Positions 8,246-49,132 of a stretch of 64,000 bases of DNA are shown here, piece after piece. Location: contig CAJNDT010005880.1 in assembly GCA_905221615.1 (NCBI GenBank), positions 359,501 to 423,500 of the forward strand. Direction: 5' to 3'. The first letter of the stretch is position 1, and every line of letters starts with the position of its first letter. Made by a program: the position numbers and the translations under genes. The DNA is from Symbiodinium sp. CCMP2592 (lineage: Eukaryota > Sar > Dinophyceae > Suessiales > Symbiodiniaceae). The notes under the pieces are model-generated. The model made no database searches. It worked only from the letters and a program-made list of their open reading frames with translations, and was not told where the DNA came from.

Positions 8246-8305
8246 AACCTCATTTGCATTAGTCAGAACCCCGATCACATCCTTTTTTTCGCGAGTCTCT
8301 TGACC

Positions 8306-29355: not shown

Positions 29356-29447
29356 GTAGAAGCCAGAAAGTTGGAATATGATTATCCTAACCCTTCTATG
29401 GTAAACTATAGGGTATCCTACCATGAAACCATATTCCAACTTTCTGG
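29356..29447. mobile_element. MITE family N, target of the LTR element
   Basis: CCAGAAAGTTGGAATATG to CATATTCCAACTTTCTGG. The giant LTR element inserted exactly at its right end: the target duplication TCTGG is the last 5 bp of this palindrome. Confidence 0.8.
29443..29447 (+). repeat. 5-bp target-site duplication, left copy
   Basis: TCTGG immediately before the 5' LTR, matching TCTGG immediately after the 3' LTR (49128-49132). Five bp is typical of Ty1/copia integrases. Confidence 0.9.
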
Positions 29448-29895: not shown

Positions 29896-29942
29896 GGCTC
29901 TGCCTTTCTACAGCAACGACTACTTGATCTACTACGACCACA

Positions 29943-32900: not shown

Positions 32901-35900
32901 ACCATCATGCGGAGACGAGAACAATCAAATCTCACTCAGACCCAAATTGGCTTGCGCCAGATGCTTGAGGGCAAGGATTTGCTTGCTGCACCGGCCAAGG
33001 TACCTGAGAAACCAACGCCTAACGCAGCTCCATCCGCAAAGGTCAAGGCTTCGCCGACCAAGCCGGATAAAGCAACACCTGTACTACCTCAAAGCAAAGC
33101 GAAGAGTCATGCGAAGACCAAGCCAAAGCCCAAGAAGAAGACGAGGAGTGAGTCAGCGGACAACAGAGGTGACAAGAGCAAGAAGCAAATCCGCTGCAAG
33201 TTCCATTTCACAGATGCAGGGTGTCGAAATGGTGACAAGTGCCCATTCAGTCACTCGAAGAAGACTCCAGAGCGACCCTTTACGCCGAGGACGAGAACTC
33301 CAAGTCCATCTGGAGGAGGAGGAAACAGGATATGCTACTCGTTCAAGAACACAGGCTCGTGCTCAAGAGAGAATTGTCCTTTCAAGCATGAGGCAGCAGC
33401 TACCCCAGCTCCGGAACCAAAGGCAAAAGCTAAAGCCAAATCCGAAGCGAAGGCAGCTCCAGCGAAGCCGAATGCCAAGGCCAAGGCGCTCCCTGCGGCA
33501 CCCGCCATCAGATTGTGCCGAAGGTGGAATCCATCAGCTCCGGCTATATGGAAGCGATCTTCAAGACAAGATGAGGAGGAGTCAGATTGTCCATCCGTTG
33601 ACAGCGACGCTGATTCGGATTGTTCAACAGACGACGAATCCTCGGGACCGACTACGTCGACCCGAAAAGAGATAAAGCGTAATGTGACATTCGCCGATGA
33701 CGTGAAGTTCATTTCTTCGTGTCCTAGAAGATCGAAGAAGGACAAAGAGCGGAAGGTGAAGTACGTCGACATGGAAGCGCTTGTCAACGATGAGGATCGC
33801 GCCGTGAATTTGGAATTCGCCAAGCACAAAGCGAGATTGAGGGCACAGATTATGAGAGACATGGTTGACGACGATGATGATCAATGTGGAGATCGAGTTT
33901 CATTCGTGCGAATCCCAGGAACGTCTCGGGTGGAGGAAGTCTCCTTCTACGACGGTGAGGATTCCATCGTTGAGCGTGAACTCGATGCTGCGCACAGCAA
34001 GCGGATCATCAATCAAGGTGTATGCAAATGCATGGTTCAACCAGTCATCCTCAAGAAGAAGATCAAGTTTCTCATGGACACTGGGTGTGGCCACGACCTC
34101 ATATCTCAGAAGAAGATCGAGAAGCATAGTCTCGAGACACTCGTGACTCCAGAGCCCATATCATTTCAGACAGCAAATGGAATCACCGATACCGATCTCG
34201 TGTCGAATTTCCAGACTGAGTCGTTCGAGGAACCGATCAACGCTTACGTGTTGGACGACACACCATCGGTGCTTTCCATAGGCAAGAGATGTATGAACTT
34301 CAACTACGGGTTTGTGTGGCCACCCGGAAGGGAACCATTCATGATCAACCCGCAGGGCAAGAGGATATCTCTGTTCGTGAACGGTGACATCCCGTACATT
34401 CGTGCCGGGAGTTCCAAGTCACTTGTTCATGATGATCCGGAGGCCAAAGCGATCACCGAAATCTTCAAGAGTGTGCTAACCGCAGGTGACGTTGACGTCA
34501 GTGTCGCAGCTGCCGCTGAAGCTGCACCAAGCGAGGTTGAAGCAGAAGAAGAAGGTGACGATCATGAACGGCCTCCTGATCCTGAACCCCAAGAACCTCC
34601 TATAGAAGAAGTGCCAGAGTCCGAGGCCGGACGACCTCCGGACGACGACGAAGGAAAAGGAGTGGGTGAAATTCCATTGGACGGTGACGATGAGGTGATC
34701 ATTGATGTAGAAGGCGACGGTGCGCCGAGCCGCAAGGCCAGAGTCGGAACACTGAAAGCCGAAGCTAAGACGTTGGCACATCTGTGTACTCATCGCTACC
34801 GCAACCCATATTGCGAATCGTGCATACGCGCGAAGATGAAGCACTTGCGGACACAACGAGGTGCGTTTCAACGTGTGATCAAACACTGGGGAGATCTTGT
34901 GACGTTCGACTTCCTCGATATGCGCAAGGCCGCCGAAGCAGGTATCGGACTCGATGATGGAGCACGTGAAGTTCTAGTCATCAGAGACATCGCCACCAAA
35001 ATGATCGCAGCGATACCCACGGCTTCAAGGAGCACTGACGAGGTCGTCATGGCCATCAGACGCCTAATGGGAAGACGCAAGATTCATATGGCGTATAGTG
35101 ATGAAGCACCAGAGTTCGATTCAGCTATGGCGCAGTTGAAGATCGTGATAGATCATTCCCTTCCAGGGAAACCCAGTAACAATTCACTCGCTGAACGGTC
35201 AAATCAAGAAGTGATCAACACAGTCGCAGCATCCATGCTACACGCCGGATTACCCGCCCAATACTGGTCTTTTGCGCTGAATTGCGTGATGCAGAACCTC
35301 AACATCGAAGACGTGGAGGGCGATGGTGATTCAGCATGGAAACGTATGACTGGAAAGGACTTCGAGGGAAAAGCCATACCCTTTGGGGCCAAAGTCTTCT
35401 TCAAGCCTACGGATACAAGGCCGAAGACATATGGCAACAAGTTCGATCCAAAGGGGATCCCAGGCATTTTCGCCGGATACATCATCACTGCTGGTCAAGG
35501 ATGGTCCAAGAAGTATCGCGTGTGGGACATGAAGGAATTTGCCAATGCGAACTTGTCAATGGACGCATCTGTTCCCAGAAAGTTGATGAGACCGTACGAG
35601 ACAGAAGTTATCTACTTCCCAGAGGAGATAACGTTTCCCCTGAAAGCCGAGTACGAGAGGATGAACTCAACCATTGAGGGACTAAGGGACAACGTTGACC
35701 TTGCTGGCAAGGAGATAAAAGACGTCGATGACGGGGATGACGGTCCGCCTGGAGGAAATGGTGGCAACGGGGATGATGATGATCAAGATGGTCTTCTTCC
35801 TCCACCGGATCCCGGAGAAGATCCCGACTTACAGGACATAGATCCATCTGACATAGAGACGGAGCCGTCCGGCGAAGTCTTCAAGTCAGCAGAACATGAA

Positions 35901-37487
35901 GCTATTGATGCTATAGGAGACAAAAGACTCGAAGAACTAGACGAAGAACTAGGTCTACGTGCAGCACCGCCTCCTTCTGAACCAAAGGTCACTGGAAAAG
36001 ATCGACGATCGCCCCGCGAAGTCGGTCCAACCGGTAGACTCATCCCCGAAGGAGACATCGAAGAACCTGGAGAGATTATCAAGATCTTGAAGGAAAAGAA
36101 GTTGGCTCCCGAGGAGATTGAACATTGGAGTACGGGGAAGAAAGGGGACGGCATTGTATATCTCACCGACGATGGTGAAGCCTGCAAGATCGACAAAAGG
36201 GGAGTTCCGTACAAGATCCGAAGTGATGGTCGACGAACACTTCCTACACGGCGACCTATCCATTCCTATTCTCCGGAAGCATGGAAGAAAATGAGTGAAG
36301 CGGAGAAGAAGGCAGCGTACAAGAAAGAAAAGCGAGACAAAGCTCGAGTTGCCAAGAAAGACCGGAAGAAGGCTGTGATAGGGAAGAAGATAGTCACCAA
36401 GATTTTGGACAACATGATCTTTCCCAAGATTGTTCCATGTGAAGAAATCGATCTGCAACTCAACGTGTCCATTGATGACGACGATGGATGGTCTTGGGCA
36501 CAATCCTATGTGGATCAATACACACAAGAACAATTCTTGGCGGACGTCGTGCCGGCTGTTCCGGCACACATGGTCATGGATGACAACTGGATTCCGTCTA
36601 TGCCGTGTACGACTTCTCACAGAAACGTACATCGGGAAAAGAATCAGGCAGGAGGATCATGCTTCAATGCCATGGTCACTCGACCCGTCACACGCAAGGA
36701 GATGGTCAACAACCCCAAGGCCATGGAAGCTTTCATGAAAGAATGGAAGGGATTGTGGGACCAAGAGGTGTTTGATTTCTCAACTACGCGTGAATATGAC
36801 GACGTCGTCGCTGAGGCAAAGAAGAAAGGTGAGAAAGTACATATGGCGCGAGTACATGGACTGATATACGAGAAGAACTATCAGCTCAAAGAGGACGATC
36901 CTGCCAGGAAGTTCAAAGGGCGAGGTGTACTACTCGGTGATCAGGTCAAAGACCAGAACATGGAAGCCGCATTGTTTCAGGATTTGGGGAATTCCCCGGC
37001 TACGTTTGACGCCTCACGGTGGGCAGATTATTACGGATGCCTTCCTGGCAACGATGTCCAGATGGCGGATGCTATCCAAGCATACATTCAGGCGAGACTA
37101 TCGGGAACTCCATGTTGGGTTGAACTGCCTGATGAAGCCTGGCATCCATCTGCGAAACGGCATAAATTCCGTAGGCCTGTGTGCCGCCTGATCAAAGCTC
37201 TATATGGACATCCTGACGCAGGAACCATGTGGGAACAACATTGCCATACCGCGGTACAGAAAGTAGGATTCAAGCCGATTGGCGACGAATGGCCATCATT
37301 GTATTTCCACCCGCAAATGAAGCTCTTACTTGTCATCTACGTGGATGATCTCAAGATGGCAGGACCCAAAGAGAATCTACCCAAGGGCTGGGACATGCTG
37401 CGCCAAGAACTCCGATTGGAAGAAGAAACGCCACTAGGGTTTGTATCTGGGTTGTCGCATCTCCAAGGGCGAGGCAACGTTGCATGA
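29943..37487 (+). CDS. Gag-Pol polyprotein, main frame (2514 residues)
   Basis: Starts at the first ATG of the internal region, 64 nt after the LTR. Residues 1-170 are Ser/Arg/Lys-rich; about 180-690 is largely coiled coil followed by an acidic Asp/Glu tract. About 778-1000 resembles a copia Gag core. Two CCCH fingers follow (C-x8-C-x5-C-x3-H from about 1084 and C-x8-C-x4-C-x3-H from about 1129), where most copia Gags have a CCHC knuckle. Protease: LMDTGCGHDLIS with D1379. Integrase: H1613, H1617, C1624, C1627 zinc site, then D1656, D1720 and E1751; D-E spacing is about 30, shorter than the usual 35. Reverse transcriptase: D2376 in motif A and YVDD at 2466-2469. The frame ends a few residues after ETPLG; Pol homology continues in frame 1 from 37438, so a +1 shift at GGGTTTG is needed. 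Confidence 0.9.
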   Translation: MNSGSSQDTTMTFGADVAAPAVGESTADDTVVQSVDSSTEDDKGQSSALAIAKAVPKGKAKSLPRASTPSRPTSTGSRTGKASERRAEASGFQAPRTTSRAKDKGVKTLEKKSRPSSSRSSSARSRTSATRGRDKSMTWNRMVTNQPRDADDLDMTLDTIPARGDASSVTTPAIADGPNAYQELTISQQLEASNLAQQMYYRSQMQEYEGVVQTLMDKIKEMQQEDEGSGIRIEELERQRDHACLAMRHINNVNQEMKRDYETALFRMDEQNSAQQRQAHAVAEELAQQLHVFRTEAATNFVQLEARAQGDGELMAREYERLTHELHEHARENLVLRSNTASSEQALQAMQERFHLVKNQELRAVNEIQGLAGNSAAIDQERFRLRERLGEEEEYRKMAVKRMQDAEDRLHQNEDHARRSLPTLHDELSELRKTLKAQEDLQARTRSELEAARNSNYGGATRPSSMPMSSRTTESGWEHVGKEVVPAFSVGGEVRSPEIRSPSQVSPVAKEKFAFSESDKDKNLVMDGIPFTGGNFFTGRNSMPIVADAMPEHYVPGISSPALARSTPSAATLFGIPSGFHGKSDAAAVRDRQLRELLEDRGMLGSKSTASASSSRPVGVDGITASTKGNDLIGPPIAYDDSIHEARRRQIEKEVAERYEEKIADLRSEVLKAQKAEQRLRADRDEWRLFAETIQEDNGDDDGDEAGDENEDGEHDEGTGTGYDPPDPPDDDDDKKKSGGGKPESDPGSHARDPDGDADPEVTEVRISRREADKVTVPPWPTLTHLNNWRSVCTANVLGASADPNHEDWMLWLAPAFNPFPDVEALNDSGHKKFKSVDVKLGIAMVAMLRAGGDKSADLYLEVNRKANDYISRPEGKIIKGRQIIAMMYESFRTHDRLDMILTLEYLVKLQYQGDNKLHTFKQTWLEVLGRMRPEDIPSKTALRDCLYSKIKDSPAMKMELGMHYEHLPYNHEDRSYDNLMKIIDRTIMRRREQSNLTQTQIGLRQMLEGKDLLAAPAKVPEKPTPNAAPSAKVKASPTKPDKATPVLPQSKAKSHAKTKPKPKKKTRSESADNRGDKSKKQIRCKFHFTDAGCRNGDKCPFSHSKKTPERPFTPRTRTPSPSGGGGNRICYSFKNTGSCSRENCPFKHEAAATPAPEPKAKAKAKSEAKAAPAKPNAKAKALPAAPAIRLCRRWNPSAPAIWKRSSRQDEEESDCPSVDSDADSDCSTDDESSGPTTSTRKEIKRNVTFADDVKFISSCPRRSKKDKERKVKYVDMEALVNDEDRAVNLEFAKHKARLRAQIMRDMVDDDDDQCGDRVSFVRIPGTSRVEEVSFYDGEDSIVERELDAAHSKRIINQGVCKCMVQPVILKKKIKFLMDTGCGHDLISQKKIEKHSLETLVTPEPISFQTANGITDTDLVSNFQTESFEEPINAYVLDDTPSVLSIGKRCMNFNYGFVWPPGREPFMINPQGKRISLFVNGDIPYIRAGSSKSLVHDDPEAKAITEIFKSVLTAGDVDVSVAAAAEAAPSEVEAEEEGDDHERPPDPEPQEPPIEEVPESEAGRPPDDDEGKGVGEIPLDGDDEVIIDVEGDGAPSRKARVGTLKAEAKTLAHLCTHRYRNPYCESCIRAKMKHLRTQRGAFQRVIKHWGDLVTFDFLDMRKAAEAGIGLDDGAREVLVIRDIATKMIAAIPTASRSTDEVVMAIRRLMGRRKIHMAYSDEAPEFDSAMAQLKIVIDHSLPGKPSNNSLAERSNQEVINTVAASMLHAGLPAQYWSFALNCVMQNLNIEDVEGDGDSAWKRMTGKDFEGKAIPFGAKVFFKPTDTRPKTYGNKFDPKGIPGIFAGYIITAGQGWSKKYRVWDMKEFANANLSMDASVPRKLMRPYETEVIYFPEEITFPLKAEYERMNSTIEGLRDNVDLAGKEIKDVDDGDDGPPGGNGGNGDDDDQDGLLPPPDPGEDPDLQDIDPSDIETEPSGEVFKSAEHEAIDAIGDKRLEELDEELGLRAAPPPSEPKVTGKDRRSPREVGPTGRLIPEGDIEEPGEIIKILKEKKLAPEEIEHWSTGKKGDGIVYLTDDGEACKIDKRGVPYKIRSDGRRTLPTRRPIHSYSPEAWKKMSEAEKKAAYKKEKRDKARVAKKDRKKAVIGKKIVTKILDNMIFPKIVPCEEIDLQLNVSIDDDDGWSWAQSYVDQYTQEQFLADVVPAVPAHMVMDDNWIPSMPCTTSHRNVHREKNQAGGSCFNAMVTRPVTRKEMVNNPKAMEAFMKEWKGLWDQEVFDFSTTREYDDVVAEAKKKGEKVHMARVHGLIYEKNYQLKEDDPARKFKGRGVLLGDQVKDQNMEAALFQDLGNSPATFDASRWADYYGCLPGNDVQMADAIQAYIQARLSGTPCWVELPDEAWHPSAKRHKFRRPVCRLIKALYGHPDAGTMWEQHCHTAVQKVGFKPIGDEWPSLYFHPQMKLLLVIYVDDLKMAGPKENLPKGWDMLRQELRLEEETPLGFVSGLSHLQGRGNVA

Positions 37488-38274
37488 CAAAACGAAGGTG
37501 CAGACCGTTACCTACGACATGGAGACGTACCTGGACATGACAGTCAAGAAGTACTGCGACGTGACTGGGTTCGATCCGACAAAATTCAAGACGGTACCAT
37601 CGCCGAGTCCGGCTGAGGAGACTAAGAATCACCCAGCTCGCGCTCCGGCACAGTCAGGTAAAAGCCATCGATGCACGTGGTGTGGACACACCATGCCTGT
37701 TGATAAGGACGGTCGGCTTGTTCCGCCTCCACCTATTCCCAAGGCGCCAGAGGAAGAGGAGATCAACGAGGCTAATCGCGGCGCACTTGCTCCGCAGGCA
37801 GCAAGCATTCTCATGAAATTGCTTTATGCCGCGCGCATTTGCCGCTTTGATCTTCTGCGCAGTATCAACAATCTCGCACGCAAGATCACGAAATGGACCA
37901 AGAAGGAGGATGCTCTTCTTCATCATCTCATGGCCTATGTGCACCAGTCCAAACATCACATGATGATTGGATGGGTCGGGAACTCCTTGGAGGACTCGTC
38001 CATCGGGCTGTTTGCAGATGCGGACTATGCAGGTTGTGGAGAAAGTTTGAAATCTACCTCCGGTGCTCATTTGCACATTCAAGGTTCTCATACAAGATTT
38101 CCCTTGGCGGGACTTAGCAAAAGGCAGGGGTGCTTGAGTCATTCCACACCTGAGGCCGAGATTGTCGCGGCCGACTTTGCCATGTCACGTCTTGGATTGC
38201 CTGCTATCACGTTGTGGCAGCAGCTTGGGGGGCAAGACCCCAACTTCGTCTTTACGACGACAACCAGACCATGA
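37438..38274 (+). CDS. Pol continuation: RT thumb, Cys/His insert and RNase H N-terminal part
   Basis: Frame 1 carries YLGCRISKGEATL, the sequence expected after copia reverse transcriptase motif E, preceded by an in-frame TAG at 37435, so it cannot start independently. A connector includes HRCTWCGHTMP, a CxxCxH cluster not usual in copia connectors. RNase H begins at IGLFADADYAGC (first Asp) and STPEAEIVAA (Glu). The homology leaves this frame inside a run of six G (38227-38232) and resumes in frame 3. It is not a free-standing gene. Confidence 0.85.
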   Translation, partial: GLYLGCRISKGEATLHDKTKVQTVTYDMETYLDMTVKKYCDVTGFDPTKFKTVPSPSPAEETKNHPARAPAQSGKSHRCTWCGHTMPVDKDGRLVPPPPIPKAPEEEEINEANRGALAPQAASILMKLLYAARICRFDLLRSINNLARKITKWTKKEDALLHHLMAYVHQSKHHMMIGWVGNSLEDSSIGLFADADYAGCGESLKSTSGAHLHIQGSHTRFPLAGLSKRQGCLSHSTPEAEIVAADFAMSRLGLPAITLWQQLGGQDPNFVFTTTTRP

Positions 38275-38600
38275 TCGGGGTGATTCGCACGGGCAAGAAT
38301 CCGACTATGCGTCACTTGGAACGTACCCACGGCATCTGCATTGGTTGGATGCATTCTATCTTTCAGGAAGGTTACGTTTCTCTTGCCTATGAGGTCACTG
38401 CCAAGATGTCCGCGGACATACACACCAAGTCGTTCAAGGATTCTGTGTCCTGGACACATGCGTGTCAGCTCATCAACATTTTTCCGCCGGCTCTCATTGG
38501 CTCCCAAGAGATTATGGATCTGATGCGCCCTACTCATACCCAAAGTACGGATGAGAAGGGGCAACAGCATTACTCGTTCAAGAGCGAGGTGCCTTGTTTT
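38214..38600 (+). CDS. Pol continuation: RNase H C-terminal part
   Basis: Frame 3 contains LRLYDDNQTMIGVI (third catalytic Asp near 38256-38261), the H-x-E-RTHGICIGW block and KMSADIHTKSF, which matches the QxADxxTK signature closing copia RNase H. The open frame continues to 39242, but after about 38600 the natural-looking sequence lies in frame 2, so I end the feature there. Confidence 0.8.
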
Positions 38601-39553
38601 CCTTACACGCAGACGCCGATCCTCCCTCAGGTGTTGTATCGGCTGGATTGTCGAGTAAGGAAGGCTTGCAAGAACATGACAGTGTGGACCCCATCCTGGT
38701 TGTCAAGTTCCCGCGCATGTTGCGGGGGCCGCCTTCCGCGTTGCCGCCTGGTCGTTACCTTCGGTCGACTTGGATTCTTCGCGAAGGGCAGTGGCACCAG
38801 ATGGAGGATCGTGCTGCTATCCTTGATCAACCGGGCAAGTTCGACCGCTATGTGGAGCGTGCTGTGTTTCAGTACCATCCGGTCCGGGGGCATTTGCGCC
38901 CCGCAGCTATTGCGGACGTCCTTGCGCCGCCGTTTTTGCCTCCTCCTGAACCGCCTTTGGGCCAGTCTTATGTGCGCGCCCTGCCCGCCAAATGGCGAGC
39001 GGTGGTTGTCACACTGGCGCGTGCCATCCATGGGGGGTACCAGGGCTTTACATTGCCTCTTTGTTTCAACGGCCAGTCCAAAAGTCAAGCCTCTCAATTC
39101 GGTTATGACCACTGGTCGTCAGTGTACGAGGATGTATGGCATGATGCGGCTGAACAGAAAAGGGAATATCAAGGATACGATGGAGCAATTGTGCCTCACG
39201 TGGTCAATTTCGCCGAAAACAAACCCAAGGAGGGCCTGGTGATCCAATTCCTCGACCACGATGGAGGGTTGGTCCATACCTACAAGAATCCTTACAGCCG
39301 GTGGAAGTACCGTATCACTATCAAAGATGCTCCAAAAGCAGTGACGGTGTGGACATTGGTAGGGGTCGATGAGGAGAACTGGTGGAATGAGTATGCTCCA
39401 GGCAAGGATTGCATTGCACAGCATGCTCCCGATTCTCACTATGACCCTGGGCTGCAAGTAAATGTTCTGAGTATGGGGCGAGAAGTTGACGACGCCATGT
39501 GCGCCTACCTCTTCGATGTGGTGGAAGCAAGGAAAACAACCCTAACTCCGTGA
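38594..39553 (+). CDS. Unrecognised retroelement ORF X1 (about 319 codons)
   Basis: Frame 2, with no ATG at its left edge (it opens with TTG inside the end of RNase H), so it is probably a continuation of Pol reached by a -1 shift. Contains Pro-rich GPPSALPPGRYLR and PPFLPPPEPP, then a folded-looking part with GYDHWSSVYEDVWHD, VIQFLDHDGGLVHTYKNP and WTLVGVDEENWWNEY. No family recognised. It ends shortly after DVVEARK, where the frame 1 ORF takes over. Confidence 0.6.
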   Translation: MFSLHADADPPSGVVSAGLSSKEGLQEHDSVDPILVVKFPRMLRGPPSALPPGRYLRSTWILREGQWHQMEDRAAILDQPGKFDRYVERAVFQYHPVRGHLRPAAIADVLAPPFLPPPEPPLGQSYVRALPAKWRAVVVTLARAIHGGYQGFTLPLCFNGQSKSQASQFGYDHWSSVYEDVWHDAAEQKREYQGYDGAIVPHVVNFAENKPKEGLVIQFLDHDGGLVHTYKNPYSRWKYRITIKDAPKAVTVWTLVGVDEENWWNEYAPGKDCIAQHAPDSHYDPGLQVNVLSMGREVDDAMCAYLFDVVEARKTTLTP

Positions 39554-40833
39554 TCTTCATTGGTGCAGGGGTGTTAGGCAAGAATTCGTGGCTGAGTCGG
39601 AAAATCGCTGACAACCCTGAAAGGGCCAAATTGCGGACAGACTACCCATGGGGGGAGGTCGTCCAAAGAATTGCGCGCAGAGCGGCATCATGGGGGTTCC
39701 AAATCATCATCGAAGTACCTCCTCGAGTACCAGTCCAGGAAACCAAGCAGTACAAGGGACTTCAGGAAGATGCCATGTGGAAGAGCATCAAGATCCAAGG
39801 ATGCACTCACGGGCAACGTTATACCTTTCGGGATCCTGTATCTCCCGGAACCGCCGTCGAGCTCGGCTACTGCAAGGATGAATGGGAGTACATTGCCGCA
39901 AACGTCGCGTTGCATCCTAAGTCGTCTGACGTGTGCTCGTCCAAACATTTGCACATGACCGATTCGGACGCTAAGGATCGATCTGATAAATGCGAGTTGA
40001 CTAGCCAAATCTCCAGGAGATTGCTTAAAGCCTTGAAATTTCAGGCAACGGGCGATGGGAGATTGGTAGCCATGCCGTCGAAGGCTGGTGGACGAAAGCC
40101 TGACCGCATGATCGTTGACCTATGTGGCTTGGGCAATGGCTACGCCGTGCCTAAGTCCACTAAGGGATGCGCTCGCATAACTTGCAAGGAGCTGATTGGC
40201 TCTAAGGCCGATGAGGACAGCCTTATCGGTGCGATGAAGGATGCGTGCCGGAATGACCTGCGCACACCTGTGCTATTCGTGGCATCGCTTTTGCGATCAG
40301 GTGCTGGTCCTGGAAGTAGTGAAGGGGCTTGCGTGGGGGGTGAGAAACGTTCCGGTGGGAAGTACAAGGTTTTCAGAAGTGTCTTGAAATCTCTCAAACG
40401 CCTGCTGAAGAAGTGTGCGGAATTTTCCGACGTCTATTTTTCGCTTGACATGCCTTCTTCATGTTCATGTTGGTCTTGGCCAGAGTTGCATGCTCTTGTT
40501 TCAAGTGGCAAGGTGACGAAGGTTAAGATTGATGACCATGTTGGTGCTGGTGGCGATGGTGGTGGACGCAGGATCATGTTCTCTAACATGCCTGAAGCGG
40601 ATCGTTTGATGGTGAGACTGGATGATTGCTTGGACCATGAATCGAAGAGCAGTTTGTCGCAGCGCATTGATGTTTCATGGCGGTCGATTGCGAGGAATGT
40701 TCGCAGCCTTGTTCGAGCTCATGTCAGTGTCAGTCACGATGCACATGAATCTGAGGACATTGCATGGCAGCAACATCAGTGTGTAGACGCTGATGAAGGG
40801 GCTATTAGACAGCCCCAACTAAGGAACAACTAA
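39499..40833 (+). CDS. Unrecognised retroelement ORF X2 (about 444 codons)
   Basis: Frame 1, opening with GTG inside the end of X1; natural sequence starts around ENNPNSVIFIGAGVLGKNSW. Visible blocks: a basic region with GWQ-like WGFQIIIEVPPR; DLCGLGNGYA (about residue 230), slightly reminiscent of a nucleotide- or SAM-binding loop; LFVASLLRSGAG; and FSLDMPSSCSCWSWPEL. I recognise no family and do not assign a function. It ends with TAA at 40831-40833, the only clear termination between Pol and X3, so Pol-X1-X2 may once have been one polyprotein. Confidence 0.6.
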   Translation: MRLPLRCGGSKENNPNSVIFIGAGVLGKNSWLSRKIADNPERAKLRTDYPWGEVVQRIARRAASWGFQIIIEVPPRVPVQETKQYKGLQEDAMWKSIKIQGCTHGQRYTFRDPVSPGTAVELGYCKDEWEYIAANVALHPKSSDVCSSKHLHMTDSDAKDRSDKCELTSQISRRLLKALKFQATGDGRLVAMPSKAGGRKPDRMIVDLCGLGNGYAVPKSTKGCARITCKELIGSKADEDSLIGAMKDACRNDLRTPVLFVASLLRSGAGPGSSEGACVGGEKRSGGKYKVFRSVLKSLKRLLKKCAEFSDVYFSLDMPSSCSCWSWPELHALVSSGKVTKVKIDDHVGAGGDGGGRRIMFSNMPEADRLMVRLDDCLDHESKSSLSQRIDVSWRSIARNVRSLVRAHVSVSHDAHESEDIAWQQHQCVDADEGAIRQPQLRNN

Positions 40834-40945
40834 GGTCTGACCGGACGGATCGGGGAAGGGTGCCTCTTACGGAGAACCCGGAACCGTGAAGTCGAGTAGG
40901 GTGTAGGGACTTCTCTCCTACGGAGGAAGGACCGAACCCCGAGCC
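40834..40945 (+). other. Spacer before ORF X3
   Basis: 112 bp between the X2 stop and the X3 ATG, stop codons in all frames, ending in GAGCCATGG (a strong Kozak-like start). It could hold a splice acceptor, a trans-splice acceptor or an internal initiation signal; none is proven. Confidence 0.5.
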
Positions 40946-42952
40946 ATGGCTGAAAGCTACAATGCCTACGAGCTGGCCTTCGAAGGAGTGGACCACGAAG
41001 AAGTTTTCCCATCTGGTGGGATGCTGCGGACGTTTCTGAAGTTCCACAAGTTCCTGGAGATGTATTCTGGGGATTCGTCGCAGAGCGTTTCGCTCCCGCC
41101 AAAGATTACGAAAGACAAAGTGGTCGACAATGATCTCATTCGCACATGGGCAGCTTTCAAAGCACCTCCGTTGGTCTTGCTGTTCACGTGTGCAAATCTG
41201 TCGCCAGGAGGGGATCTTTCCATTCGAGTCCGAGAAATCCTCAAGGCTTGCATATTTGCTGCCCCGGAGGAGTACATGGACAAGCCCTATGGGGAGATAC
41301 TCGCCATGGTCATCAAGTTTGGTGGAGGTCTCAAACACATTGTTGCTGACTACGAAGGGAAGTTCAGTGCCATCACAAGATTTATGGTGGACGAGGAAGT
41401 GATCCGCGATGATGCAAAGTTGGCTGTGGTTGAACTGGAACAAGAAAGAAAACAAGTTCGGTTCGACTTGAACACTGCGACCAGGAACATCGTCAGCGCG
41501 GACGTGTACTACAATCTCGCCGTTCTCATCAACTCCGTGGAGACGCCCTACCAGACCGTGACAGACACGAGAATTCAACAATGGTATACGGTGAATCAGG
41601 ACTACTACCACAAGTTGCCCATGTCAGGCAGAGCACCTGACCAATCCGACTTGTTGGGAGAGCCTACGTTATGTAGGGTGTGCAAGCTGATGTACATGTT
41701 CGCAAAGCACACTGGGTATGGACTTCGGACCTACAACCAGGAATGCGCAGCGAGCAACGATGGCGCTACGCCAATCAACGTTCACCAGCTGGCTTTGATG
41801 ATGCGCACATTGCCTCAAGGCATGGGACATCCGCTCGCCTTTGCGATGAACTCACTCCAGGCGTTCAGTGTCTGTCTCCACGTGCTTCATTCCTACGTAT
41901 CATGGGTCGATCCACAAACTGGACTCCCGCATTACAGATGGTCTAACGACGTGCTCCCTGATTCCGACTACACCACGTATGCTTTCCTCAAGTACCATGT
42001 GGATGCCGTATGTGCAGCTCAGGACAAGAACGGTTTCCAATTGCCGGATGCGTTCCGTGGCTACACCTGGAATCAATGCGGAGTTGAATCTGGGTACGTG
42101 GTCGACTGCTCTACCAAACGCGCCACATTGGGCATATGGGAAGCGGAATTCCAACAGATGAGGGCACCAAATCCGCTTATGCAAGATGATGGCCTATTTC
42201 CGCCCAACCTTCAACGGCATCCTAGCTGGGTATACTCAACGGGGAGAGTTGCGATGCCTACGGCAAGCAACCTCGAACCGGAAGGAATCGTGCACCCTGA
42301 GCATGGAAGAACGCCGGAACAATCGCAAGGATCCGCTGCCGGACCTCGAGCCACCCCTAGCCACGGACCAAAGAGGGCAAGGACGGACGAGGCAACGGCA
42401 TCGGCGTCGTCATCTTCTGCGGCACCTCCTCCACAACAACCGACTTCGCAACCGGAAGAGGAACCATCGCAACCGACATGGGAGGAAGCTCCAATCCCCG
42501 CTGGCGCTCAGGAAAGTTGGTACCATTATGTCAACATCGATGAGAAGGGCTGTCGCTCGATCTTGCTGACGACGACCCGTGATCAAGACGAGTACCCACC
42601 TACCATTGATGAGACGCCAAAGTTTGTGGCCAACCACGACGTGGGGACCACACCGATTCAGCATTACGTCAGAAGACTGGTGACCTATTTGGCAAGGATC
42701 CGTTCCGTCTCTCAAAGTGATGACAAGGGTCTCAACCTGAAGGTCTACGTGAAGCTGAGTACGAAGGTGTGGTTACGGATGTATTCACGGCTGTACCATG
42801 CATTGGCATTGGTGTCATGCGTGCATCTTCCTTCTCCTCCAATGCTTACCTCGGCAGTGATGATCGAGGCAGACGCGATCTTGTCGACAACGATGAATTC
42901 CGGAAGAAGCAAGGATCAACACCATGAACACGCTGAACGGATTTCGCAATAG
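40946..42952 (+). CDS. Unrecognised retroelement ORF X3 (668 codons in frame 2)
   Basis: Starts with ATG in context GCCATGG: MAESYNAYELAFEG. About residues 1-440 look like a folded alpha-rich domain (TFLKFHKFLEMYSG, YYNLAVLINSVETPYQT, HQLALMMRTLPQG). A Pro/Ser/Glu linker (about 445-525) follows, then a short domain (SWYHYVNIDEKGCRSILLTT). No known family recognised. Near 42724-42760 the plausible sequence moves to frame 1 (PEGLREAEYEGVVTDVF... to about 42924), a -1 shift. Frame 1 then stops at TGA 42925-42927, overlapping the next ATG as ATGA. The frame 2 tail after 42760 is probably not real protein. Confidence 0.65.
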   Translation: MAESYNAYELAFEGVDHEEVFPSGGMLRTFLKFHKFLEMYSGDSSQSVSLPPKITKDKVVDNDLIRTWAAFKAPPLVLLFTCANLSPGGDLSIRVREILKACIFAAPEEYMDKPYGEILAMVIKFGGGLKHIVADYEGKFSAITRFMVDEEVIRDDAKLAVVELEQERKQVRFDLNTATRNIVSADVYYNLAVLINSVETPYQTVTDTRIQQWYTVNQDYYHKLPMSGRAPDQSDLLGEPTLCRVCKLMYMFAKHTGYGLRTYNQECAASNDGATPINVHQLALMMRTLPQGMGHPLAFAMNSLQAFSVCLHVLHSYVSWVDPQTGLPHYRWSNDVLPDSDYTTYAFLKYHVDAVCAAQDKNGFQLPDAFRGYTWNQCGVESGYVVDCSTKRATLGIWEAEFQQMRAPNPLMQDDGLFPPNLQRHPSWVYSTGRVAMPTASNLEPEGIVHPEHGRTPEQSQGSAAGPRATPSHGPKRARTDEATASASSSSAAPPPQQPTSQPEEEPSQPTWEEAPIPAGAQESWYHYVNIDEKGCRSILLTTTRDQDEYPPTIDETPKFVANHDVGTTPIQHYVRRLVTYLARIRSVSQSDDKGLNLKVYVKLSTKVWLRMYSRLYHALALVSCVHLPSPPMLTSAVMIEADAILSTTMNSGRSKDQHHEHAERISQ

Positions 42953-44480
42953 TTTGGGTATGGGTGGCAAACCCGATGCCGCGACTATGCGCTCTCAGTG
43001 CACAATCCTCGTCCAGGACTTTGACATGGTTGCAAGGACCAGGGGATCAACGCACACGGTGAGAGAGAACCTCGGCATGCATGGATGGAGCGAGGTCTAC
43101 ATTGTGAGCCCGTCGATCACCGCAGGTGCCAACTACAACTTCCAAGTCACAAAAGGATCGTTGGAATCTGTGAATGCGACATTGGATGGCTTGACTGAAG
43201 AGCAGCTTGCAACCGTCACATTGCATTACCATCTGTCTCTCCAGGCGATCCTCATCGAGAACATGTCCTTTCCGATGAGTGAGGTTGGAGACGGAGCAGC
43301 AATTCGCACTGACTTGCAGCGACAGCTCAAGATCACGTACGTTGACCCTATCATTGCGGCAGGGAAGCGTACCACGCGCCCTCCAATTGTCAACATCAAT
43401 CACGACTTACGGTTCGTTGGAGCAGCTAGCAATTACCTTCAGCACAAAGCTTCTCTGTTCAACGGTTTCCACGCGCTGGGAATGTATATTGAACTGGAGT
43501 TGCGGGCCCGAGCATGCGTGGTGATTCATGGATCTTCGTTTTGGTCAAGAATGTACAGCCAGATGAAACATGCGTCGTCAGGCGTGCATACACTGTCAGC
43601 CGAAAAGGTGCCAGCACCGGACAATCGGGTCAGGTTCAAATTGGGCTTCGCTATCTACGAGAAGCAGCTGTTCTGCGAGAAGATGGTATCCACGTGCTTT
43701 GTTGAGGCATCGAAAGTTCGCTCATGGGACGAAACTGTCCGCGCCGACTCAGTCGCTCACCCGTCGCTTGTCGAGATTTGGGAGGACAAGAGTGAAGTCA
43801 AGACGTCCACCAGGATTTCGCAGACATGGTTTACGGGAGAACAGCAGCAACAGATCAGGTCGGGTGCCCAGGGTGACACGGTCGCTGAATCGTCCACAGT
43901 CACCTGGCAGGATTTTGACATCGCCATGACCGTTCCCGAAGCCTACTACGACAACAGGCACTACTGGTTCCGGATCGACACCTATGCGACCCCGAACACC
44001 GGTTATGTCAAAGGGAGAACGTTCTATTGCCCTGGATGTGACGCAATGAAGTTGGCTGAGTGCTACGCACAGGCCTTCTTCAAGCCGACCGGAAACGGGT
44101 ATCCTGGACACTGCATTGGGTGCGCGCATACTTCAGCCTTGAAGATGCAGCATCAAATCGGCTCCTTCAATGACTTGGTCGCGTCCCAGAAGTACACCTT
44201 GGCTTGCGCAAAGCACCTTTATGACCTGAGGCTTCAATTTGTGGACCCTCGCATGGACATCAAGGAGTTCCTCAAAGCTTGTGCGGAAGTGGTCTACGAA
44301 GACATTGGCAAGACGGTTTCTCACTACGGTGGTCTCCGAATCACAGCCAGTCAGGCCATCGAGTACGCGGCATGGGGAAAGGCCAAACAGTTGGCATGGG
44401 ACAGGGATACGATTCCGAAGGCAAGACATGCTACATCTGCTACTACGATGCCGGGAACTGCGCTTATGCTGGTTTCATGA
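42924..44480 (+). CDS. Unrecognised retroelement ORF X4 with zinc-ribbon-like site
   Basis: Frame 3, ATG at 42924 within ATGA, so its start overlaps the stop of X3 read in frame 1. The 518-codon frame encodes MNTLNGFRNSLG..., a long beta/alpha-looking region, and FYCPGCDAMKLAEC ... GHCIGCAHTS (about residues 368-400), two CxxC pairs that could bind zinc. At about 44396-44410 the natural-looking sequence shifts to frame 2 (DSEGKTCYICYYDAG), another -1 change, so X4 and X5 probably form one protein. Function unknown. Confidence 0.65.
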   Translation: MNTLNGFRNSLGMGGKPDAATMRSQCTILVQDFDMVARTRGSTHTVRENLGMHGWSEVYIVSPSITAGANYNFQVTKGSLESVNATLDGLTEEQLATVTLHYHLSLQAILIENMSFPMSEVGDGAAIRTDLQRQLKITYVDPIIAAGKRTTRPPIVNINHDLRFVGAASNYLQHKASLFNGFHALGMYIELELRARACVVIHGSSFWSRMYSQMKHASSGVHTLSAEKVPAPDNRVRFKLGFAIYEKQLFCEKMVSTCFVEASKVRSWDETVRADSVAHPSLVEIWEDKSEVKTSTRISQTWFTGEQQQQIRSGAQGDTVAESSTVTWQDFDIAMTVPEAYYDNRHYWFRIDTYATPNTGYVKGRTFYCPGCDAMKLAECYAQAFFKPTGNGYPGHCIGCAHTSALKMQHQIGSFNDLVASQKYTLACAKHLYDLRLQFVDPRMDIKEFLKACAEVVYEDIGKTVSHYGGLRITASQAIEYAAWGKAKQLAWDRDTIPKARHATSATTMPGTALMLVS

Positions 44481-47203
44481 GAATGCTTTTGACTCCGGAA
44501 GAGCGCCAAGAATGCTACAGAGGGTCAGCCTTGCCCAAGGAGGAACTCCTGGGTGACACGGTGGAGCTGGCGCTCGGGCTTCTTACAATTGCAATGAGAC
44601 ACCCAAGTCATTTTCCGAATTGGGGTGGCCTTGAGGGAGCAAATGCGTGCGTGAGGGGAATCGAAAGATCATTCTTCCGCTACGCGTCGGCCGAAGCTAT
44701 CGAGCTGATCACGGTTGACTCCCCACGCAAAAGGACACCGCCCAAGAAGAATGAAGCAGTCGCTGAGATCGTCAACAACATGTCCGCTGACCTCGTGATT
44801 GATTTCACAGTGATCGTCGATGGTGATATCTACCCCGTAGAGATTGCGAGAACCGACGAGACACAGGCCGCTGACAACGTCACGGACGATCCAGGGTTCT
44901 CCGTTGCTCCACCAATACCTGCACAGGATGTAGATGTGGATGCGCAACCCGAAGAAGAACAAGGTGCAGAAGGCCCTGATCCCAGGCAGGCGATTCGTGA
45001 AGGATTTGTCGCACAGCTTCAGGACTATGTGGGAGTGCTCGCTCAAGGCGAAATGTCGGTCGGAAGTGACCGCCTCACGTTCTGTATCGCTTGTGGCAGT
45101 GATCTACACACTCTGTCCAATTGCACGGAAAATTCTGCAACCCGGGATCTGGTACTTCGAGGCATCCAGATCATCAAGGAAAGCCTTCTTCGATATCCAC
45201 GTCGAGTACCTCCACAAGAGGCTGAGCCAATGGACGTTGACACCACAGACCATGTGAGTGTTGCATCCTCGGACCGACGACCCAAGGCCAAAGCCCGACC
45301 GCGACGCGGAGGCGAAGCCGTACGGGGTGATGTGGTCTTGATCCGTTATGAGAACAAACACAATCTCTGCACGGATGTGGAAAACCGTCGGGGCCTACAT
45401 GATGCTTGTGGCGTACCACTGCAGGAATCAGGACCAGAGAATAGCCAGCGGGTGGTGGACCTCATTGAGCAGCTTTCGGACCATCGCGACCGACGCCTAC
45501 CTCAACGAGGAGACCGTCCTAGCTTTGCTTTTGACGATACCACTCAGGGCTACACCAATGCAGGCTATGAATGCATCGGCGGCGGAAGGCCAATCCGGTG
45601 CGGGATTCTCGACCTGATCCCAACCAGGGGTGCAAGCTTCATCAACAATCGATGGGACATCGTGAACGAAGTTGTCCTTCGCAACATCACCCGTCAGCGC
45701 AGACTAAACGCGGATTGGGCGCTATCATGCATCCAATCTGACCTGCGTCACAGAATCGCCAGGCGCCCAGGCTCGGAATGGCTTGACAACAGGTGCCAGG
45801 TGGCATTCAACAGCGTCATTCGATGTGATGAAGGAGGGTGGGTGATGATCGAAGACTTGGTGAGGCATGAGCAACTATGGACCCATGAAAGCAGACGCAT
45901 CACCGAAGCGGTCTCAAGGACCGATGAACAACAGAAGAAAAGAGTGTACAATGAAAGACTTCAGCTATTGTTCCAAGGGAACATGCTCGCAGCCACGAAA
46001 CGCCATAAGGCCAAGATTCGGTTGCAGTTCCTGGGAGTGAGAGTGAAGGACCCCGGCACGGAAACTCTTGGATCAGCAGGTTCGAACATGTTGGTATCGG
46101 TTCCTGACCAGATCACGGAGATCCAGAACAATGATCATTGCCGGCACAGCCAGAGGTACCTGAACGTTTGCAACGGCTGGGTGAAGCCATGGGCAGTTCG
46201 GGCTACAAGTGGTCACTCTGCGCACTCAGATCCCCAGAACAATTTGCTTCAGTTGGACAAGAACAGGTTCGCAATATCTCCATCTATGACCCTCTTGCAA
46301 CGTCTCGGAGGAGCGTTCCACGCTACAGCATGTCGCAACTTGGATTCCATTGTCACGCAAGGCATCATGCCTGGTTCGGAGGACCCCGACGGGGACTTCG
46401 ACCATAGGCGCCAATTTCGAGGCAACCAAGGCGGCAGACTCCACAGCTATTGGGGGGTGTTTGCACCGTTCGATCACCGGAACGCGACGACCAAGATGCG
46501 GGTGCATGGACGAGATGCCAAGCACATGCCACTGGCGGTCCTCCATGTCCCATCGCAGGACCTTGCACGAGAAGATGGACGTATCACAGACAGCGGCATC
46601 ATGATCGTTGGCCGAACGATACCGTTCCATTTCGTCAAGGAGGTATGGTTTTGCGTCCCGGATCCTCAAGATACACACTCTTTCGCTCTGGTGGAAAAGA
46701 TCTACGATGAACGATTGGAGAAAGAGCTGGTGTTGGACTACAATGCATCACCGTTGCTCCCTGAGTTCGAGAGATACCGAACGCCGAGCAAGATCATGGA
46801 ATTGCTTTGCGAGATGCCTCCTGGACCCCACGACACCAGCAAGGAGCAGATCATTCGAGACCTCACGACTGTCCTGGAGTCCCACAGGGAGAACACGGTT
46901 CGGCATCACTACATGGACAAAGGGATCAAGTTTGTCATCAAGAATTGGCGACCCGAAGACCTACGCAGAGACGAGGATGGAAGGAGAATGAGGGTGTGCC
47001 CGGCATGCTACAACATCGTTCCAGCATGTTCTCCCGATGCACGTCTTGCTGGTCACAGTTCGTTTCTAGCGGATATTACCAAGGTTCTCCACAACGGGAG
47101 ACTCCTACGGAGATCCCCAGTGACTTCATCGCTCAGACAATGGAAGCCGCAGCAGCAGCAGTGCCTGAGGCGCCCGAAGAGGAGCAGGAAGCCATGGAGG
47201 TAG
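44279..47203 (+). CDS. Retroelement ORF X5 with Tpt1/KptA-like RNA 2'-phosphotransferase domain
   Basis: 974 codons in frame 2; real sequence probably starts near 44405 (KTCYICYYDAGNCAY, a CxxC site). The KptA fold is seen at about residues 480-800: WALSCIQSDLRHRI (LRH motif, R490-H491), DEGGWVMIEDLV (W521), VRATSGHSAHS (R641, H646; family IRAxQGHS), FHATACRNLDSIVTQGIMPG (family YHGTxxxxLxxIxxxGL), GGRLHSYWG (R720, H722; family RxHVHLS) and a late GIMIVGRTIPFHFVKEVWF strand. The family's four catalytic residues R-H-R-R correspond to R490, H491, R641 and R720. Tpt1/KptA enzymes use NAD+ to remove an internal 2'-phosphate from RNA. Differences: about 100 extra residues between W521 and R641, and FHAT for YHGT. 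An acidic linker and FCIACGSDLHTLSNC precede the domain. The far C-terminus enters a CPAC half zinc-ribbon whose partner is in the next frame. Confidence 0.8.
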   Translation: MCGSGLRRHWQDGFSLRWSPNHSQSGHRVRGMGKGQTVGMGQGYDSEGKTCYICYYDAGNCAYAGFMRMLLTPEERQECYRGSALPKEELLGDTVELALGLLTIAMRHPSHFPNWGGLEGANACVRGIERSFFRYASAEAIELITVDSPRKRTPPKKNEAVAEIVNNMSADLVIDFTVIVDGDIYPVEIARTDETQAADNVTDDPGFSVAPPIPAQDVDVDAQPEEEQGAEGPDPRQAIREGFVAQLQDYVGVLAQGEMSVGSDRLTFCIACGSDLHTLSNCTENSATRDLVLRGIQIIKESLLRYPRRVPPQEAEPMDVDTTDHVSVASSDRRPKAKARPRRGGEAVRGDVVLIRYENKHNLCTDVENRRGLHDACGVPLQESGPENSQRVVDLIEQLSDHRDRRLPQRGDRPSFAFDDTTQGYTNAGYECIGGGRPIRCGILDLIPTRGASFINNRWDIVNEVVLRNITRQRRLNADWALSCIQSDLRHRIARRPGSEWLDNRCQVAFNSVIRCDEGGWVMIEDLVRHEQLWTHESRRITEAVSRTDEQQKKRVYNERLQLLFQGNMLAATKRHKAKIRLQFLGVRVKDPGTETLGSAGSNMLVSVPDQITEIQNNDHCRHSQRYLNVCNGWVKPWAVRATSGHSAHSDPQNNLLQLDKNRFAISPSMTLLQRLGGAFHATACRNLDSIVTQGIMPGSEDPDGDFDHRRQFRGNQGGRLHSYWGVFAPFDHRNATTKMRVHGRDAKHMPLAVLHVPSQDLAREDGRITDSGIMIVGRTIPFHFVKEVWFCVPDPQDTHSFALVEKIYDERLEKELVLDYNASPLLPEFERYRTPSKIMELLCEMPPGPHDTSKEQIIRDLTTVLESHRENTVRHHYMDKGIKFVIKNWRPEDLRRDEDGRRMRVCPACYNIVPACSPDARLAGHSSFLADITKVLHNGRLLRRSPVTSSLRQWKPQQQQCLRRPKRSRKPWR

Positions 47204-48432
47204 AGACCGTTGCGGAACCTGAGGAAATCCCAGAGCCATCTGTCATCGCAGAGGACGATCCAGAACAGGAACCTGATGAAGAAATGGACATAGAGCCAGG
47301 AGAGGACTTTGATGACGCAGTACCAGATGCAGTTGCACAGGAACGTCGTCCCGTCTTCATTACCGGCCAGTCTTTGAACATCGATCCTGAGCTACAACTT
47401 GCACGTACCGCCATGCAGCCATCCTACTATTCTGGAAAGCGAAATGCCCATTGCATTGACGCCAACATGGCCGCTCTTTCGTATATGGCATACGTGGTAT
47501 GCAGATCCATCTACAAAGCTTGGTCAGGGTTCGCAAAGTGGGCGACTATGCCGTTGTTCCAGATGAAGGAGAATTTCGCACTTGGCCAACGCTATGATGT
47601 GCTCGGAAAGTGGGGATCTTTGGCGGCAGTGGATAGGGAAACGGGTGTGAGCAAGGATGTGACTGATGAGGAGATCATTCGCTTTGCCAAGGAGCCTGAG
47701 AACCTCAAGCAGTATGATCCCAACGGGACTTACACTTTGAAGCGCTTCCGGACGAATCAGATGCTTTCGTTGCTTACACGGGGAGCCAACATGATGGGAA
47801 TTGGCAGGGACAACTTCAACCCTACTACGTACTTGAAGAGCAACAGGGATGAAGATGTGAAGGCTATGCACTTTTGTTGCCTGAACGTCCTGTGCGAGGT
47901 GATTCCGATGGTGACGGGACACCAACAATTCTCAGTGCTACGACCAACGCCAACTGGACCGGTGGACTTCTTGTACATCGACCCCGTCGGTATCCTGCTG
48001 ACTCATTCCGATCATTCAGTCCAGACCATCGGATTGCTGGTGGACCACAATGTGCAAATGCCTGCGCATTTCATGGACAGATTGAACAGATCCAAGGCTG
48101 AGAGACAGCAAAACCCGACGACCAAGCGTACTGAAGCCCTACACCACATTTCGGCCGCTGACTATCTCCCTCCAGGTGGTACTTCCATCCTGGACACGCC
48201 TGTCACTACGGAGGAACGTGCAAGCGCTTCTTCGGCCAAGGGACCTTCAAAGGGGCGTGAGAGAGCCGGAGGTGAACAGCATGGAGGCTGGAACGCCAAC
48301 ACCTACTATGACTACACCGCCGGCAAAGGCCGAAACAAAGGCAAGGACAAAGGAAAGCAAAGGGAACAGTATCCAGAGGAAAACCTCCGGCCCTGGGACC
48401 GCGATCCTGCGACCACGCGAAGATGGAGATGA
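46807..48432 (+). CDS. Retroelement ORF X6, C-terminal continuation
   Basis: Frame 1. The first 70 or so codons are a shadow of X5. Natural sequence begins near 47020 with SRCTSCWSQF, which supplies the second CxxC of a zinc ribbon whose first half (RVCPACYNIV) is in frame 2 of X5; this indicates one protein split by a -1 shift. An acidic Glu/Asp-rich linker (about residues 120-180) follows, then a folded region (HCIDANMAALSYMAYVVCRS, DVTDEEIIRFAKEPENL, FDFLYIDPVGILL-like) and a basic Gly/Lys tail (GKGRNKGKDKGKQRE) that may bind nucleic acid. No family recognised. Stop TGA at 48430-48432. Confidence 0.65.
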   Translation: MRDASWTPRHQQGADHSRPHDCPGVPQGEHGSASLHGQRDQVCHQELATRRPTQRRGWKENEGVPGMLQHRSSMFSRCTSCWSQFVSSGYYQGSPQRETPTEIPSDFIAQTMEAAAAAVPEAPEEEQEAMEVETVAEPEEIPEPSVIAEDDPEQEPDEEMDIEPGEDFDDAVPDAVAQERRPVFITGQSLNIDPELQLARTAMQPSYYSGKRNAHCIDANMAALSYMAYVVCRSIYKAWSGFAKWATMPLFQMKENFALGQRYDVLGKWGSLAAVDRETGVSKDVTDEEIIRFAKEPENLKQYDPNGTYTLKRFRTNQMLSLLTRGANMMGIGRDNFNPTTYLKSNRDEDVKAMHFCCLNVLCEVIPMVTGHQQFSVLRPTPTGPVDFLYIDPVGILLTHSDHSVQTIGLLVDHNVQMPAHFMDRLNRSKAERQQNPTTKRTEALHHISAADYLPPGGTSILDTPVTTEERASASSAKGPSKGRERAGGEQHGGWNANTYYDYTAGKGRNKGKDKGKQREQYPEENLRPWDRDPATTRRWR

Positions 48433-48696: not shown

Positions 48697-49127
48697 TGCG
48701 AACGGACTGCGATGCCTTGTCAAGTTCTAAGGTGTCACTATAAGAGCTGTGAGCAAGACCGTGTAAAGTGCAAGAGAAGGGGGCACGCTACGCGTCCCTC
48801 GACTCTAAGGGGGCACGCTACGCGTCCCTCATCTTTACCTTTCTATGTGACCGCCCACGCAACGTTTGGCTCAAGTCAATGCCCATAGCTAAGTGCTATA
48901 TGTGTCTTCTATCCTGAGCAATCAGAGCTATCCCGTTGCACAGACGAACCGCCGCCGGCAGTGAGTGCAAAAGGAACGGCCGCCGGTTCTGCCTGCATAG
49001 GATTGCACGCGTGGAAGTGTAAGAGAGACAGAGTCCAGTCTGTGGAGAGTGCAAGCCAGCCACACCTACATTCATTACAGCTCTGGTGGGGAGAGCAGCA
49101 ACCTAGTCGAGATCAATCCCCCACGCA
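48697..49127 (+). repeat. 3' LTR (431 bp)
   Basis: Same length as the 5' LTR and 98.6% identical (6 substitutions, no indels by eye). The spliced-leader-like 11-mer is at 48865-48875. Confidence 0.95.
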
Positions 49128-49132
49128 TCTGG
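49128..49132 (+). repeat. 5-bp target-site duplication, right copy
   Basis: TCTGG after the terminal CA of the 3' LTR. Confidence 0.9.

Follow-up and report, generated by a model that had tools for sequence, protein, structure and literature searches.

Based on sequence comparisons, a 992-residue open reading frame (ORF, counted stop to stop; positions 44225..47203) within a Ty1/copia-type LTR retrotransposon of Symbiodinium sp. CCMP2592 contains a domain that is a member of the Tpt1/KptA family of RNA 2'-phosphotransferases. Comparison with related proteins indicates that this domain is a lasting feature of the element group, not an accident of one copy. The element lies in a 64,000-nucleotide stretch of DNA, referred to here as the window; all positions are those of the window and all features of the element are on the + strand. 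The original prediction, that a Tpt1-type domain is encoded inside an LTR retrotransposon, was borne out by a match to the Pfam family PF01885, by the LTR pair, by the TCTGG target duplication and by the relatives of the element.

Organisation of the element

The element is of the Ty1/copia type and extends over 19.68 kb from LTR to LTR. The 5' LTR (431 bp, TG...CA; 29448..29878) and the 3' LTR (48697..49127) were identified as a blastn pair (29446-29878 versus 48695-49127), their ends being read directly, and are 98.6% alike (6 mismatches in 433 aligned bases). A 5-bp target duplication, TCTGG, is present in the sequence of both flanks (29443..29447 and 49128..49132). The sequence just 3' of the 5' LTR may resemble the half-tRNA primer sites of Drosophila copia.

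The gag-pol ORF (29928..37487) encodes 2519 amino acids and includes CCCH zinc fingers (the best zf-CCCH stretch, residues 1086-1111, is above the curated Pfam cut-off), a retroviral-type aspartic protease (residues 1376-1423) and an integrase SH3-like region (residues 1819-1869), the last two with Pfam scores under cut-off. These are followed by the reverse transcriptase (RT) family RVT_2 (residues 2415-2503; E = 1.3e-6, 28.7 bits against a cut-off of 31.6), which in the relatives P0018 (35.9 bits) and P0083 (39 bits) is above the cut-off. The order protease-integrase-RT is that of Ty1/copia. In the pol of the window Pfam detected the integrase through its SH3-like part only and listed no RNase H family. 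The coding sequence of pol continues in a shifted frame (37438..38274; 82% identity to P0018 and 90% to P0016) and ends in a further frame (38229..38642; 88% to P0016), which is assigned to RNase H by its position and likeness to copia; no Pfam family was matched by the two window ORFs that hold this end of pol.

About 10 kb of extra coding sequence lies downstream of pol, before the 3' LTR is reached. It includes a conserved segment (38624..39553; 52% identity to P0018 and 47% to P0016), two 3' extension ORFs found in the ORF list and through relatives (40907..42952, where the C-terminal part matches P0014, and 42897..44480, which matches P0005, P0010, P0013 and P0014), the ORF with the Tpt1/KptA domain and a C-terminal polyprotein continuation (46765..48432; 98% identity to P0001, 41% to P0005 and 37% to P0003). 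The extra ORFs correspond to one coding unit in the relatives, because single proteins join them: the Tpt1 domain is joined with the upstream window ORFs in P0005, P0010, P0013 and P0014, and with the downstream window ORF in P0002, P0003, P0004, P0005 and others.

Alignment to the relatives revealed eight frame changes in the window element, near 37.44-37.48, 38.23-38.25, 38.62-38.64, 39.51-39.53, 40.5-41.0, 42.85-42.91, 44.38-44.41 and 47.00-47.03 kb. The Tpt1 domain itself is in a single open frame throughout. The reading frame of the window element is thus not intact, which concerns this copy and not the element group; given the eight frame changes, the copy may be dead, or the assembly may contain indel errors.

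The sequence TTTGGCTCAAG, which corresponds to the 3'-terminal part of the spliced leader of dinoflagellates, is found at 29616-29626 and 48865-48875, in the two LTRs only (2 occurrences in the window against 0.07 expected). As the LTRs are copies, the two occurrences represent one event, and the full spliced leader was not detected in the window at up to 3 mismatches. Elsewhere in the window are tandem arrays of one related 123-bp unit (1930-3090, 21720-22198 and 55955-57361) and internal blocks of telomere-like CCCTAAA-type repeats (8247-8554, 9226-9465 and 52729-52938).

Family membership and conserved residues of the domain

As had been expected from its motifs, the ORF matches PF01885 (E = 2.2e-6, 28.3 bits against a gathering score of 26) over residues 531-716 (45815-46372), corresponding to profile positions 22-122 of 177; as aligned with relatives the domain comprises 344 residues (45707..46738). 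The motifs listed in the original prediction are all present in the order and at the places given there, once 18 is added to residue numbers that had been counted from position 44279 instead of 44225. They are LRH (507-509), DEGGW (from residue 535), WAVRATSGHS (from 656), FHAT (698-701), GIMPG (from 713) and GGRLHS (from 736), with KIRLQFLG starting at residue 597, and the late strand ending in EVWF is found as KEVWF from residue 805.

An independent hidden Markov model (HMM) was trained on 13 Tpt1 domains taken from copia lineages outside the window clade, among them the nearest ones, P0060 and P0082. It detects the ORF at E = 1.4e-15, compared with 0.15 for the best of the decoys (169 other window ORFs of at least 80 residues, 170 reversed ORFs and 200 shuffled versions of this ORF), which rules out a chance match of motifs. 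With an HMM of only the three most canonical rows the ORF still ranks first but weakly (E = 0.016 versus 0.39).

Searches of the PDB with alignment profiles point to the same family. A 10-row profile (the window and nine relatives) gave two matches up to E = 1, both of them Tpt1 structures (E = 0.0015 and 0.019); the single window sequence retrieved no Tpt1 structure from the PDB and gave two unrelated matches at E = 0.14. The more canonical Tpt1 domains of P0080, P0131 and P0083 gave 13 matches up to E = 1, all annotated as RNA or tRNA 2'-phosphotransferases. Among these the best were 7yw2 ('tRNA 2'-phosphotransferase 1', E = 1.4e-17), 7yw3 and 7yw4, in the range 1.4e-17 to 6.6e-16, with all others at 3.7e-8 or weaker. 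These three structures are, we presume, of eukaryotic (mammalian) enzymes, and this hints at a eukaryotic source for the Tpt1 domain of the elements. NCBIfam had no match in the window ORF and three Tpt1 matches in P0080, all far below the cut-offs. In profile-profile comparison the alignment of the window lineage with the canonical copia Tpt1 rows (probability 86.9, E = 4.1e-6) was confined to the second part of the domain. Comparisons of entire 3' extensions recovered the Tpt1 segment at a probability of 93-95 in three of 21 pairs and of about 65 in two, and at lower values in most of the remaining pairs.

The catalytic set of CthTpt1 is given as Arg18-His19-Arg68-Arg121, with an HGT motif at residues 101-103, in the available text of PMC6333775. 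By alignment the counterparts in the window are R508-H509 (45746..45751), R659 (46199..46201) and R738 (46436..46438), so that the four positions claimed as kept are indeed retained, while the NAD-binding HGT motif corresponds to H699-A-T701 (46319..46327). In an alignment built with a profile that contains many of the rows counted, and over all rows covering each position (window included), the tetrad reads Arg in 33 of 33, His in 21 of 33, Arg in 34 of 35 (the exception is Lys) and Arg in 24 of 28, the last count including P0001, in which this position coincides with a gap of the gene model and perhaps should be disregarded. The remaining 12 of the 33 domains have Gly in place of His; nine of them belong to proteins in the RT tree, where all fall in one 17-row clade. 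According to what is available of PMC6333775, replacement of this His by Ala in RslTpt1 slowed step 2 only threefold, and the ancillary lysine (CthTpt1 Lys66) is non-essential in RslTpt1 and SceTpt1. The counterpart of Lys66, two residues before that of Arg68, is Ala in the window. In the HxT motif the His and Thr are kept and the middle Gly is not: the window has HAT, whereas P0080, P0083 and P0131 have HGT.

Against a median share of 38% for the commonest residue over 244 testable columns, the best-kept columns are R599 (36/36), R508 (33/33), G713 (30/30), R659 (34/35), G663 (33/34), I709 (29/30), H664 (32/34), T701 (28/30) and H699 (28/30), with R738 (24/28) in twelfth place. The twelve best-kept columns therefore include the three arginines of the tetrad and the H and T of HxT. 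The RNA lobe of the window lineage carries large insertions and is about 100 residues bigger; R508 and R659 are 151 residues apart in the window, compared with 50 for the equivalent pair in CthTpt1.

Distribution, descent and accompanying modules

A search with the Tpt1 domain region found 14 proteins of relatives, and one with the integrase-RT region found 124, of which 120 were listed. Among the matches listed, the Tpt1 domain is present downstream of RT in the same protein in at least 21 cases, that is, in 21 of the 120 pol relatives, and it is positioned after RT, toward the C-terminus, wherever both were placed. This proportion argues that the domain is no chance passenger. Precomputed annotation assigns PF01885 to 11 of the 120 listed proteins. 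The window-lineage profile adds P0018 (Symbiodinium KB8), P0060, P0082 and P0107 to the carriers, and a wider profile adds P0092, P0123, P0102 and P0124, with P0125 and P0127 weakly (E = 1.7e-5 in a set of 134 proteins). PF01885 scores in the relatives reach 82 bits in P0080 and fall under the cut-off of 26 in P0119 (25.5), P0089 (24.9), P0124 (18.8) and P0082 (16.8). No Tpt1 match was listed by the Pfam scan for P0018, P0092, P0125 and P0127 or by the precomputed Pfam annotation for P0060, P0102, P0107 and P0123.

An RNase H match was found in 71 of the 120 listed proteins; in 14 of these it is followed by at least 1,500 residues, and ten of the 14 have a Tpt1 domain. P0077 and P0063 end before the point where the domain would be expected. 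The stretch past RNase H is 1,504 residues long in P0064 and 1,628 in P0067, shorter than the roughly 2,350 of the window lineage. Two proteins of S. microadriaticum match the window, in keeping with a Symbiodinium-like host: P0001 at 96% over 74% of the query and P0016 at 91% over 524 pol columns and 62% over the whole query. P0001 tracks the window ORF as far as residue 728 and picks it up again at residue 887; the remainder of the Tpt1 domain is missing from it, as would happen if a gene model had placed an intron within an element. P0111 (Effrenium voratum) matches the segment upstream of the Tpt1 domain in the same window ORF. A search with the three canonical Tpt1 domains found only 4 proteins, of 171-314 residues. 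A scan of IMG/VR for DNA of the relatives gave 5 pattern matches for A1, 26 for A3 and 2 for P0083, of which none was confirmed.

The carriers recognised when the 70-row RT tree was made are spread over many of its deep branches. The Tpt1 label requires 16 changes for 16 rows, a value as low being obtained in 500 of 500 shuffles, and hence does not cluster. This does not show repeated gain, for most ORFs stop short of the domain, and P0102, P0123 and P0124, later found to be carriers, had been scored on the tree as lacking it. We read the lack of clustering as truncated ORFs hiding the domain, an example of the variation being the near-twins P0109 and P0118, which differ in ORF length; independent gains are also compatible with the test. 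RT and Tpt1 distances are correlated (r = 0.80 for the 18 of 22 carriers with enough columns, a value reached in 0 of 999 permutations), and near-copies contribute to this correlation. Identities in the Tpt1 domain are lower than in RT (43% versus 89% for the window and P0018; 34% versus 85% for P0112 and P0120) and are about 12-30% overall between groups. Divergence as fast as this would likewise be in line with a weakly constrained sequence away from the active site.

Downstream of the Tpt1 domain is a zinc-ribbon-like motif, CxxC-x10-CxxC (46997..47049), the second pair of which is in the next frame in the window. It is found after Tpt1 in 19 of the 24 relatives with tails of at least 100 residues, the exceptions being P0007, P0012, P0119, P0124 and P0131. 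The pattern occurs 19 times in 8,116 residues of tails and 3 times in 276,664 residues elsewhere. Taken together, the distance correlation and the shared ribbon favour one old acquisition of the Tpt1 domain, followed by inheritance with the element.

A second conserved domain, D2, of about 210 residues is located after pol in the Tpt1-bearing elements, namely in P0080, P0083, P0131, P0119, P0103, P0105, P0112, P0118, P0120, P0089 and P0122, and is characterised by the motifs IEFCCxxxSKL ... SLPCxGGSxW ... ExxRxCxYW ... FDGC. Its probable counterpart in the window (40048..40830) is degenerate, with 19% identity to the first row of alignment A4 and LR in place of the PC motif of the relatives. 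In hhalign comparisons of seven groups, D2 gave a best match with a probability of 97.7-100 in 20 of 21 pairs, two of these matches covering most of the extension; for the other pair the highest-ranking match spans 2 columns and the D2 region scores 94.4. D2 matched no related family in Pfam (one of ten rows had an unrelated match, E = 0.14) and no chain in the PDB at better than E = 2.9. The layout of its motifs resembles that of a methyltransferase, which is a guess. Other domains observed in relatives are a weak SAP-domain match near the C-terminus of P0124 (residues 3233-3265; E = 3.8e-4, below cut-off) and a dUTPase domain ahead of RT in the copia-type polyprotein P0104 (residues 1148-1276; E = 1.6e-39).

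Possible function and relation to known systems

Tpt1/KptA enzymes use an Arg-His-Arg-Arg set and NAD+ to remove internal 2'-phosphates from RNA, and cells use the family to clear phosphates from repaired RNA; the usual source of RNA 2'-phosphates is RNA ligase. Pfam scans of the window ORFs and of the relatives listed no RNA ligase, a point against the account given below. What Tpt1 does in taxa that lack a fungal-type ligase is described as not obvious in the accessible part of PMC6333775.

It is very probable that the domain belongs to the Tpt1 family and has been retained for catalysis. As an account of the whole, it is likely that an old copia group has a polyprotein with a terminal Tpt1 domain, mostly accompanied by the zinc ribbon, that is kept for NAD+-dependent RNA chemistry. 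The linkage in single proteins shows that Tpt1 and RT are made as parts of one chain, and column conservation shows that the domain keeps the residues for binding an RNA 2'-phosphate and NAD+. It might then work on RNA of the element itself, within the virus-like particle or close to it, and take off 2'-phosphates that remain after cleavage and re-ligation, or, as an alternative substrate, phosphates at the 3' end of the tRNA-derived primer; reverse transcriptase would thereby be able to start on the RNA and pass along it. We propose only tentatively, as less probable than not, that such removal of 2'-phosphates (or of a primer 3'-end phosphate), so that RT can proceed, is the particular job of the domain. 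The fuller version, in which an ancient copia-like group stably owns an NAD+-dependent RNA-healing enzyme that frees the primer tRNA fragment and the long template, perhaps with D2 as an RNA-processing module, is more doubtful.

An active domain could instead have as its main job the addition of ADP-ribose to 5'-phosphate ends of RNA, as a protective cap, with internal 2'-phosphates not the target. The available portion of PMC6582358 describes ADP-ribosylation of 5'-phosphorylated RNA by human TRPT1 and S. coelicolor KptA, and the canonical copia domains score best against tRNA 2'-phosphotransferase 1 chains. Nothing in the sequence separates the two reactions, and the best-kept columns include the two arginines of the RNA lobe that engage the 2'-phosphate; we consider capping an improbable main role. 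It is somewhat unlikely, too, that the domain serves in counter-defence, undoing or competing with an RNA-cleaving or RNA-modifying response of the host, its fast change being the mark of an arms race. Nearly fixed active-site residues in a domain of about 12-30% identity between groups would agree with this, as would the discussion of RNA processing and of attack by host effectors, in the part of PMC9503650 available, for the KptA domains of a few RNA virus polyproteins. However, no host target is known, and the neighbouring segments diverge fast too, so that fast divergence is not specific to the Tpt1 domain.

The substitution of Gly for the tetrad His in 12 of 33 domains and the large RNA-lobe insertions of the window lineage (151 versus 50 residues in CthTpt1) could be taken to mean that catalysis has been lost and that the domain serves the polyprotein by binding RNA or in a structural role. 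Set against the presence of three tetrad arginines and of the H and T of HxT within the twelve best-kept of 244 columns, such a loss is quite improbable. Taken by itself, the window copy would leave room for the insertion, or assembly, into this copy alone of a Tpt1 gene of the host or of some unrelated element. This is barely credible, given that the LTRs and target duplication enclose the whole element and that a one-off insertion is contradicted by P0018, P0080, P0131 and other carriers, which have RT and Tpt1 in one protein in the same order, often with the same ribbon.

The domain resembles Tpt1/KptA/TRPT1 (PF01885) in its tetrad, its HxT NAD motif, the order of its motifs and the exclusive matching of this family by its alignment profiles in the PDB. 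It differs in being part of a retroelement polyprotein, usually with a zinc ribbon after it, in the larger RNA lobe of the window lineage, in having HAT for HGT, and in the Gly for His of one sub-group. The element is like other Ty1/copia LTR retrotransposons in its LTRs and 5-bp duplication, gag zinc fingers and protease-integrase-RT order, and unlike them in the roughly 10 kb of extra coding sequence, including Tpt1, after pol. KptA domains are reported, in the text available of PMC9503650, for the polyproteins of Beihai picorna-like virus and Botrylloides leachii nidovirus, which likewise replicate through RNA. Those, however, are positive-strand RNA viruses in which the domain is described as rare, whereas the window element is reverse-transcribing and the domain recurs in its group. 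The string 'retro' occurs twice in that text, the retroviral mention being of 2H domains of retroviruses. Dinoflagellate retrotransposons that acquired a nucleic-acid-modifying enzyme are described in what is available of PMC5890265, but they are Symbiodinium LINE and DIRS elements with cytosine methyltransferases (DNMT), as opposed to the copia-type element with Tpt1 described here; the abundant Copia superfamily is described there as without any DNMT domain. Chromodomains, a DnaQ-like exonuclease and helicases are named as retrotransposon accessory domains in the available text of PMC6338049, which has no mention of Tpt1, phosphotransferase or ADP-ribosylation.

According to the original prediction, no LTR element is known to have been described with this domain, and among the matches listed in the open-licence PubMed Central literature none was seen to describe Tpt1/KptA within an LTR retrotransposon. 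The database already names P0083 (JGI) 'RNA:NAD 2'-phosphotransferase (TPT1/KptA family)', so that Tpt1 in this element group is labelled and yet, as far as found, undescribed. If active, the domain would link reverse transcription with NAD+ and with the repair of RNA and would give Tpt1 a role outside tRNA splicing, and LTR elements would be added to the small number of RNA viruses in which an embedded KptA is known. Whether 2'-phosphates limit retrotransposition would also become testable. Were the RNA-healing reading true, reverse transcription in these elements would depend on the NAD+ of the cell.
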